From assembly GCF_900110855.1 (NCBI RefSeq), contig NZ_FOFA01000007.1:62001-126000 (forward strand): a DNA stretch of 64,000 nucleotides, written 5' to 3'. The stretch comes from Microlunatus flavus. GTDB taxonomy: Bacteria > Actinomycetota > Actinomycetes > Propionibacteriales > Propionibacteriaceae. The notes beneath the pieces were generated by a model. That model searched no databases. It was not told where the DNA came from and was given only the letters and a program-made list of their open reading frames with translations. Of this stretch, positions 22,531-59,664 are shown piece after piece. The translations under genes and the position numbers were made by a program. The number at the start of each line of letters is the position of its first letter. The stretch's first letter is position 1.

Positions 22531-22598
22531 GGTGCCGGCGAACGTGCTCGTCTCACGGACGACCCACGGGCGTGACGTCGCCTCCGCACACTGGAGGG

Positions 22599-24257
22599 GT
22601 GCGTACGCGTCGGCTCGGCAGCGTGCTCGCGCGGCACGCCGCGCGGGTGCGCTCGCGACGCACGCTCCTCACCAGCCTCGCCCGTGCGGTCGCGGTCACG
22701 CTCGTCGCCGCCGTCCTCTCCCTGCCGCTCGCCGCGGCCTGGGGCGTCGGGCACGCGCGGGTCAGCGACTACCTCGGGCCCAACCGGGTCGACCTCGCCG
22801 CCGACTACAGCGGGGAGATCGAGATCGACCTGGGACCGCTCGGGCGGGCCTACCTGACCAGCCCCTACGCGCCCGTCGGCGTCCGCGCGACCGTCGGCGG
22901 GGTCGGGGAGTCGGGCTCGACGCTCGGGTCGCTGTTCTCGCAGGAGACGCTGTCCGCCTACACCGCGCTCTACACCGACCCGGAGGAGGCGGTCCGCGGC
23001 CTCGTGGAGCGGCTGGAGCGCGACGCGCTGCAGCGGACCGCGGTGGCGGAGGCGGTGCTGCTCGTCGGGTTCGCCGTGTGGCGGCTGCGCTCGGGCCTGC
23101 TCGCGCCCTGGGTGGTGCGTCGCGTCACCCGGCGCCGCACCCTCGCCGTCTACGTCACGGTCGTGGCCGTGCTGGTCGGCGGCGTCCTGGTGCCGACCCG
23201 GCCCGACGGCCCGCGCATCCCCGTGAACCTGCCCCTGCCGGACCGCACCCCGACCATCAGCGTCGACAGCGCCCTGCTCGCCGACCTGCTGGGCCGCACG
23301 GTCTCCGGGATCCGCATCCTCAGCGCTCGCCAGCAGGCGGCCGTCGGCGAGTGGGAGGACACCGCCACGCGGTCGCTCGCGGCGCAGCTCGACGAGCTGC
23401 CACGCCCACGCAGCGGCGAGACGATGGCGTACGGCTTCAGCGACCTGCACTGCAACCAGGCCACCACCGAGCTCATGAGCCGCCTCGTCGCGGTCACGAA
23501 CCCGAGCGTGGTCCTCGACTCCGGCGACGACACGGTCAACGGGACCGCGGCCGAGCGGGGCTGCATCCGCCGTGAGCTCGGCATCGCCGGCGGCCGCCCG
23601 TTCGTCGTGGCGACGGGCAACCACGACTCGGACGTGACCGAGGCCCAGCTCCGCGCGGCCGGCGCCGAGGTGCTGGACGGCGCGGCCGTGCGGGTCGGGG
23701 GCCTGGAGGTGCTCGGGGACGACGACCCCGAGCGGCAGGTGCCGTTCAGCGTCGAGCGCACGCTCGACCGGCCCGAGGACGAGGCCCAGCTCGGCCAGCG
23801 GATGCTCCAGGTCGCGCGACCGCGGCCGGTGGACGCGATCCTCGTGCACCAGCCGACGGCGGCGGCGCCGCTGATGGAGGCGCCCGACCCGCCAGCCCGG
23901 CTCGTGCTGTGGGGGCACATGCACGCGCAGGTCGGGCCGACCGTGGTGACCCACGCCGACGGTTCCTGGACCGTCGGCATGCAGCAGGGCACCTCCGGCG
24001 GGGTGAAGCAGCCGACGCTGGCCTCGTTCAGCACGCCCTTCAGCCCGCCGCTGGTCCGCGCCGACTCCTACTTCTACTTCCGCGACGCGGCGACCGGGCT
24101 CGTCACCGGCGTGCAGCCGGTCCATCTGCAGCCCGACGGGCGCGTGGTCATCGACCGCCGCACCGACACCGGCGACCTGGCCGCGCTCCCGGACGAGACC
24201 CGCCGACGGCTCAGCGGCGCCAGCCCCTCGCCGACCCCGGACGAGAGCCGGCGCTGA
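22599..24257 (+). CDS. Membrane-anchored metallophosphoesterase
   Basis: 552 residues. Two hydrophobic segments (about 20-45 and 150-210) precede a calcineurin-like phosphoesterase domain in the C-terminal half. The metal motifs are FSDLHCN (D-x-H), DSGDD, TGNHD and WGHMHAQ, so catalysis is plausible; the catalytic domain should face outside or inside depending on topology, which I cannot settle. The C-terminus is Ser/Pro-rich. A -10-like CACACT lies six bases before GTG 22599, favouring it over GTG 22572 (nine residues longer). Substrate unknown. Confidence 0.86.
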   Translation: MRTRRLGSVLARHAARVRSRRTLLTSLARAVAVTLVAAVLSLPLAAAWGVGHARVSDYLGPNRVDLAADYSGEIEIDLGPLGRAYLTSPYAPVGVRATVGGVGESGSTLGSLFSQETLSAYTALYTDPEEAVRGLVERLERDALQRTAVAEAVLLVGFAVWRLRSGLLAPWVVRRVTRRRTLAVYVTVVAVLVGGVLVPTRPDGPRIPVNLPLPDRTPTISVDSALLADLLGRTVSGIRILSARQQAAVGEWEDTATRSLAAQLDELPRPRSGETMAYGFSDLHCNQATTELMSRLVAVTNPSVVLDSGDDTVNGTAAERGCIRRELGIAGGRPFVVATGNHDSDVTEAQLRAAGAEVLDGAAVRVGGLEVLGDDDPERQVPFSVERTLDRPEDEAQLGQRMLQVARPRPVDAILVHQPTAAAPLMEAPDPPARLVLWGHMHAQVGPTVVTHADGSWTVGMQQGTSGGVKQPTLASFSTPFSPPLVRADSYFYFRDAATGLVTGVQPVHLQPDGRVVIDRRTDTGDLAALPDETRRRLSGASPSPTPDESRR

Positions 24258-24312
24258 CGCGCGCCGGGCCCGTGCGGCACTAGGCTCGCGCGCAGCCCGG
24301 CGTCCGCGCCGA

Positions 24313-24385
24313 GCCCCCGTGGCCCAACGGCAGAGGCAGGCGGCTTAAACCCGCTGCGGTGCGGGTTCGAATCCCGCCGGGGGCA
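24313..24385 (+). tRNA. Class I tRNA with anticodon TAA (Leu?)
   Basis: A complete 73-nt cloverleaf. Acceptor GCCCCCG/CGGGGGC, discriminator A, D arm GCC..GGC with GG in the loop, anticodon stem GGCGG/CCGCT enclosing CTTAAAC (anticodon TAA at 24346-24348), five-base variable loop, T arm GCGGG/CCCGC with TTCGAAT. CCA is not encoded. A TAA anticodon reads UUA (Leu), but bacterial tRNA-Leu normally has a long class II variable arm, which is absent here. It may be charged with another amino acid, be a specialised tRNA, or be non-functional. Confidence 0.8.
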
Positions 24386-24406
24386 CGCGTGCCGCAGGTC
24401 CGCGGC

Positions 24407-58737: not shown

Positions 58738-59664
58738 ATGACCGCCGTGACCAGGCCCGCCCTCCGTACGGACGCCCGGGGCGAGCGGCTCCGGCTCCTG
58801 CACGTCCACGCGCACCCCGACGACGAGTCCAGCAAGGGCGCGGCCACGACCGCCCGCTACGTCGCCGAGGGCGTCGAGGTCATGGTGGCGACGTGCACCG
58901 GGGGCGAGCGCGGCTCGATCCTCAACCCCAACATGGACCGCCCGGACGTGCTCGCGAACATCGCCGAGATCCGCCGCGAGGAGATGGACGCGGCGCGCCG
59001 GATCCTCGGCATCGAGCAGGTCTGGCTGGGCTTCGTCGACTCGGGCCTGCCCGAGGGCGACCCGCTGCCGCCGCTGCCGGCGGGCAGCTTCGGCACCCTC
59101 GATCCGGACGAGGCGTCGCTGCCGCTGGTGGAGGTCGTCCGCCGCTTACGCCCGCACGTGATGACGACGTACGACGAGCGCGGCGGCTACCCGCACCCGG
59201 ACCACATCATGTGCAACCGGATCAGCGTCGCCGCGTACGACCACGCGGCCGACCCGGCCTGGCACCCCGAGCTCGGGCCCGCCTGGCAGACGCCGAAGCT
59301 CTACTACTCCTTCGGCTTCCACCTCGACAAGACCATGGCCATCCACGAGGCCATGACCAGCCGCGGGCTGGCGTCGCCGTACGAGGAGCGGCTGCGCGAC
59401 TGGAAGCCCGACCCCGAGATGGAGAACCGGATCACCACCCGCGTGCCGTGCGCCGACTACTTCGGCGTCCGGGACCACGCGCTGCTCGCCCACGCCACCC
59501 AGATCGACCCCGAGGGGCCGTGGTTCCAGGTCCCGCTGGAGGTGCAGCAGGAGGTCTGGCCGACCGAGGACTGGGAGCTCGTCCGCAGCGCGGTGCCGAC
59601 CCGGCTGCCCGAGGACGACCTGTTCGCCGGGCTGGCGGAGAGCGGCGTCCCGGCCGACCGGTAG
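58738..59664 (+). CDS. mca: Mycothiol S-conjugate amidase
   Basis: 308 residues. Cleaves mycothiol-toxin conjugates, a detoxification route found in actinobacteria. The zinc motif is AHPDDESSKGA (residues 25-35), followed by GGERGSILNPNMDRPDV, WLGFVDSGLPEGDPL, and HVMTTYDERGGYPHPDH with second metal ligands. The protein is closer to Mca than to MshB. Leu-137 is encoded by TTA (59146-59148), the rarest codon in such genomes. ATG 58738 fits family length. Confidence 0.95.
   Translation: MTAVTRPALRTDARGERLRLLHVHAHPDDESSKGAATTARYVAEGVEVMVATCTGGERGSILNPNMDRPDVLANIAEIRREEMDAARRILGIEQVWLGFVDSGLPEGDPLPPLPAGSFGTLDPDEASLPLVEVVRRLRPHVMTTYDERGGYPHPDHIMCNRISVAAYDHAADPAWHPELGPAWQTPKLYYSFGFHLDKTMAIHEAMTSRGLASPYEERLRDWKPDPEMENRITTRVPCADYFGVRDHALLAHATQIDPEGPWFQVPLEVQQEVWPTEDWELVRSAVPTRLPEDDLFAGLAESGVPADR

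Follow-up and report, generated by a model that had tools for sequence, protein, structure and literature searches.

Reviews place bacterial leucine tRNAs in class II, the class with a long variable arm. In E. coli this arm does not determine leucine identity; leucyl-tRNA synthetase (LeuRS) there depends on A73, A15-U48, G18G19, A20a and contacts of the D and T loops. A truncated tRNA-Leu that lacks the arm is charged by the E. coli enzyme, and human mitochondrial LeuRS charges a tRNA-Leu(UUR) without a long arm (reviewed in PMC9976931). The premise of the first-pass annotation of this locus, a long arm usually required by LeuRS, is thus weaker in bacteria than was assumed. No literature description of a class I tRNA-Leu(UAA) as a general feature was found, only one case of a tRNA-Leu(TAG) (PMC6582537); subscription journals were thinly covered in this search, and an earlier description is possible.

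The window analyzed here, a stretch of 64,000 nucleotides, contains a class I tRNA-Leu(UAA) gene at 24313..24385 on the forward strand, identified by ARAGORN, Rfam and homologues. ARAGORN called a tRNA-Leu(taa) at 24313-24386, UAA being a leucine anticodon, and the Rfam family RF00005 matched over 24313-24385 with 55.4 bits (E 3e-9). All features given below for the gene lie on the same strand. The acceptor stem has 7 bp (24313-24319/24378-24384) and is followed by the discriminator A73 (24385); on reading the sequence, no CCA was found encoded at the 3' end. The anticodon stem (24339-24343/24351-24355) encloses the loop CTTAAAC (24344-24350) with the anticodon UAA at 24346-24348, and the T arm (24361-24377) has a 5-bp stem. 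Between the anticodon and T arms is the variable loop GCGGU (24356..24360), which has only five nucleotides, ends in U48 and replaces the class II arm of 13-17 nt. This loop gives the tRNA its class I build; the long base-paired arm of the bldA-type class II tRNA was not encountered. The class I body, UAA anticodon and five-base variable loop described in the first-pass annotation were confirmed by ARAGORN, Rfam and direct reading. An allo-tRNA, which would have 8/4 or 9/3 acceptor/T structures, was ruled out by the 7-bp acceptor stem and 5-bp T stem.

The D arm, GCCCAACGGCAGAGGC (24322..24337), was compared with relatives and with the other leucine tRNAs of the genome. It has a 3-bp stem, C13 opposite A22, A15, and the order G18 G19 C20 A20a G21. 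The genome's class II leucine tRNAs share this plan, e.g. GCGGAATGGCAGACGC, in an alignment that takes the leucine-type 13-22 mismatch as given. The cloverleaf was not the minimum-energy fold of the lone tRNA sequence (z -1.3), as often happens with GC-rich unmodified tRNA, and covariation gives better evidence for the cloverleaf than folding of a lone sequence.

Homologues were found by DNA search in 56 of 58 relatives, and 50 of the 51 genomes sampled from the family had a match of class I length, using a pattern that accepted any tRNA with the loop TTAAA irrespective of its variable arm. In an alignment of 180 distinct class I sequences, pairing held in 99.4% of the stem cells, A73 was present in all 180, A15-U48 in 178, and AGA at positions 20a-22 nearly throughout. 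In the acceptor, anticodon and T stems, almost all pairs occurred as several Watson-Crick types among the relatives, in other words with compensatory changes. Homologues in relatives and these compensatory changes put the predicted tRNA structure far beyond chance. The loss of pairing in relatives that had been named beforehand as the mark of a pseudogene did not occur, and a tRNA pseudogene was ruled out by the stem pairing together with the conservation.

A few genomes depart from this pattern. One relative has a truncated tandem tRNA copy directly before the full gene (locus L016, genome G011). In genome G014, which is fragmented and 83% complete, no UAA tRNA was found, and a class I leucine body at L019 (1501-1574) carries the anticodon UAC, for the valine codon GUA; unless it reflects a sequence error, this tRNA would mistranslate, because recognition by bacterial LeuRS is independent of the anticodon. 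G140, also of this family and 99% complete, yielded no UAA tRNA to either the pattern or BLAST, and UUA may lack a cognate tRNA there.

Upstream of the gene, comparison of relatives identified a -10-like element, TAGGCT (24281..24286, forward strand), 32 nt before the tRNA. A TANNNT motif was present between -35 and -6 in 26 of 30 relatives, compared with 0-1 of about 30 at each of eight control offsets; a stricter scan upstream found no sigma-70 promoter with two hexamers. The upstream neighbor (22572..24257, forward strand) encodes a phosphoesterase-like protein as judged from motifs, and had no NCBIfam match. It was kept beside the tRNA in the loci of 11 of 29 relatives, in one of them by a short match of 25 residues, and because of this shared gene the locus is considered chromosomal. 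The genes flanking the tRNA are ordinary cellular genes.

The genome itself (4.79 Mb in 26 contigs, completeness 100) has 46 tRNAs. Its leucine tRNAs are of class II for CAG, GAG, UAG and CAA, with variable arms of 13-17 nt in all of them, and of class I for UAA. The normal class II tRNA-Leu(TAA) that the first-pass annotation had proposed to look for was not found among the 46 tRNAs of this draft, and the class I tRNA is for this reason predicted to be the only cognate UUA reader among them. tRNA-Leu(CAA) is expected to read UUG only. Another tRNA in the window is also unusual. At 2439-2518, upstream of an apparent glmU, the sole tRNA-Gln(UUG) of the genome combines an atypical D arm, GGTCTGCCGGCAGGGCCC, with a variable loop of 9 nt, ACTAGCGAC. 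Its identity is 95-100% across most of the genus and 94-99% in several family f3 genomes, exceeding the conservation of the class I tRNA-Leu(UAA), and no match was found in families f2 and f4.

The class I tRNA-Leu(UAA) retains A73, A15-U48, G18G19 and A20a, all of which are leucine determinants in E. coli. In a tRNA tree built from just 64 columns, the class I UAA tRNAs grouped with class II leucine tRNAs with support of 97/98, with tRNA-Cys inside the group. By plain identity, the class I body was nearly as close to tRNAs for Asn, Lys and Arg as to those for Leu, which would be compatible with conversion from one of these tRNAs, though the tree favors the leucine group and makes this origin less likely. 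A single LeuRS, of the ordinary bacterial type, passed the family cut-off in the genome. No special LeuRS was found for class I lineages: LeuRS length type did not track tRNA class, and none of the LeuRS columns distinguished lineages of the two classes more than chance would.

The meaning of UUA was examined in alignments of RpoB and LeuRS from 39 and 40 genomes, in which the informative class I genomes were mostly of lower GC. In class I genomes, 24 of 27 UUA codons fell in leucine-majority columns, including one case from the same family as the genome studied here; two of the others fell in Ile columns and one in a Thr column. This indicates that UUA means leucine in the host lineage, the genome itself having few informative UUA codons. 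Ten UUA codons were counted in about 220,000 codons (864 kb of the genome, about 0.045 per 1000), and most of them appear to fall within ORF starts that extend too far. Among the few credible examples in the sampled sequence is codon 137 of mca (58738..59664, forward strand), a conserved gene of the window that encodes mycothiol conjugate amidase; this UUA is one base from UUC. The corresponding column in relatives is Phe (UUC, in most of them) or Leu (CUC, CUG or CUU), and it is Leu in MshB structures. Leucine fits at this position, and phenylalanine would also be compatible with that single column.

Taken together, these data are best explained by a functional chromosomal class I tRNA-Leu(UAA) that would be charged by a normal LeuRS without the long arm and would insert leucine at UUA, a reading to which we assign a probability of about 0.9. 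The single bacterial-type LeuRS would charge the tRNA with leucine through A73 and the elbow and D-loop elements (A15-U48, G18G19 and A20a), contacts that should need no long arm. The short variable loop would also take away the feature that SerRS needs, and the tRNA would serve as the sole cognate UUA decoder. Transcription, charging by LeuRS and decoding in vivo are all predicted here from sequence. The gene appears to be a normal and needed tRNA-Leu(UAA) in an unusual, little-noticed, short-armed form.

Two of the interpretations offered in the first-pass annotation would deny the tRNA this role. It had suggested an identity for another amino acid, so that UUA would be reassigned in this lineage. 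The class I body with T8-A9 does resemble tRNAs for Asn, Lys and Arg, and the rarity of UUA would make reassignment tolerable, but the tRNA retains every bacterial leucine identity element, A73 and A20a among them, class I genomes, one of the same family, have UUA in leucine columns, and conservation of the tRNA extends to families where UUA is not so scarce. We consider reassignment very improbable. The same evidence bears on the suggestion of a recoding tRNA for rare UUA codons: the link to rare UUA held up, while recoding is opposed by the retained leucine elements and the leucine columns. Even an inert relic or a phage-derived passenger might be imagined, as the same type of tRNA occurs in phages and tRNA arrays and one relative has a truncated tandem copy. 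This appears extremely improbable for the only UAA tRNA of the genome: 50 of the 51 family genomes have it, its stems show compensatory changes, a -10 element is conserved upstream of it, and its neighbors are ordinary cellular genes.

A different proposal adds to the functional tRNA-Leu(UAA) rather than replacing it. Scarcity or regulation of the tRNA might control genes that contain UUA, making it a switch like bldA as well as a decoder. UUA is very rare in this genome, as it is in Streptomyces. However, it occurs in mca, a housekeeping detoxification gene, most of the remaining UUA calls come from ORF starts that are doubtful, and it has been argued that bldA regulation may not reach beyond the Streptomycineae (PMC4255298). 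Such a switch is compatible with the preferred reading as an added role, and we regard it as unlikely.

Among the matches listed, the class I form was found in Mycobacterium, Mycolicibacterium, Nocardia, Rhodococcus, Gordonia, Corynebacterium, Microbacterium, Arthrobacter, Cellulomonas, Pseudonocardia, Amycolatopsis, Streptosporangium and Aeromicrobium, and also in records from acidimicrobia and from further classes of the phylum. The two forms were mixed among families across the class, with class I in most families. In Mycolicibacterium sediminis and a Mycolicibacter chromosome, the class I tRNA was the only one found with a TTAAA loop, and no genome with both UAA forms was seen among the genomes listed. 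The bodies are distinct and internally uniform, with identity of 0.81 within class I, 0.77 within class II and 0.66 between them. Two families had class I bodies with longer unpaired variable loops, mostly 8-10 nt. The family of genome G048 has a tRNA-Leu(UAA) with such a longer unpaired loop and with C20a replacing A20a, and G048 itself encodes two LeuRS genes side by side (C1:6269163-6273957).

On an rpoB tree the class label changed 10 times, well supported branches forced at least five changes, and the scatter was about that of shuffled labels. Matches to the class I tRNA were found in at least 120 stretches of viral contigs and, on sequence similarity alone, in 13 actinobacterial plasmid records. 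Streptomyces phages carry class I tRNA-Leu(taa), though family f19, taken for the Streptomycetaceae from its bldA-like sequence, has a class II UAA gene. Of two further records, one labelled Rokubacteriota and one Deltaproteobacteria, each has a class I Leu(UAA) beside tRNA-Cys, the first with tRNA-Gly as well, in the gene order of the E. coli glyW-cysT-leuZ operon. Two further short-armed leucine tRNAs were noted: a 26-tRNA array in a record labelled Chloroflexaceae (L331, 56-4411) combines class I leucine tRNAs with anticodons CAA and UAA and class II ones with GAG and CAG, and Thermobifida phage P318 has an unannotated class I tRNA-Leu(UAG).

In the Actinomycetota the class I form behaves as an allele alternating with the bldA-type class II form, and it is common in actinobacteria and their phages. 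Horizontal replacement and the sorting of ancient paralogues may both be compatible with this pattern. More tentatively, and against our own expectation, the class I form could be a mobile allele on phages and plasmids that has repeatedly displaced class II as the only UUA reader in Actinomycetota and some other phyla, perhaps because nucleases or toxins that take hold of the long arm would miss a short-armed tRNA. If mycobacteria and arthrobacters use a short-armed UUA reader, nature has tested many times on the tree whether bacterial LeuRS ignores the long arm. This would make the role of the long arm testable, for example as a guard against other synthetases, toxins or nucleases, and would correct the view of UUA decoding that Streptomyces bldA has given.

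The contrast with class II bldA drawn in the first-pass annotation was right, with an arm of 5 nt here against 13-17 nt there. The bldA-type tRNA-Leu(UAA) of Streptomyces and several other families shares with this gene the CTTAAA loop, A73, A15-U48, A20a, the 13-22 mismatch, the D-loop plan and UUA reading. In addition to the arm, it differs in having the acceptor GCCCGGG (GCCCCCG here), G9 (mostly A9 in class I relatives) and the D arm GCGG..CGC (GCCC..GGC). The tRNA-Leu(taa) of Streptomyces phage CeilingFan (gene 114) and that of Mycobacterium phage Kykar have the same class I body, about 79% identical, with anticodon UAA; phage and plasmid copies are carried on phage genomes, some with class II hosts, whereas the gene described here is chromosomal and vertically kept. 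The tRNA-Leu(TAG) of a mycobacterial tRNA gene cluster (PMC6582537) also combines a leucine anticodon with a short variable loop, but it supplements a normal class II isoacceptor, while the present tRNA has the anticodon UAA and is the sole isoacceptor for its codon. Mitochondrial tRNA-Leu(UUR) likewise has a form without the long arm and is charged by mitochondrial LeuRS through A73 and A14 (PMC9976931); it is organellar and degenerate, whereas the gene in this window encodes a complete bacterial tRNA.
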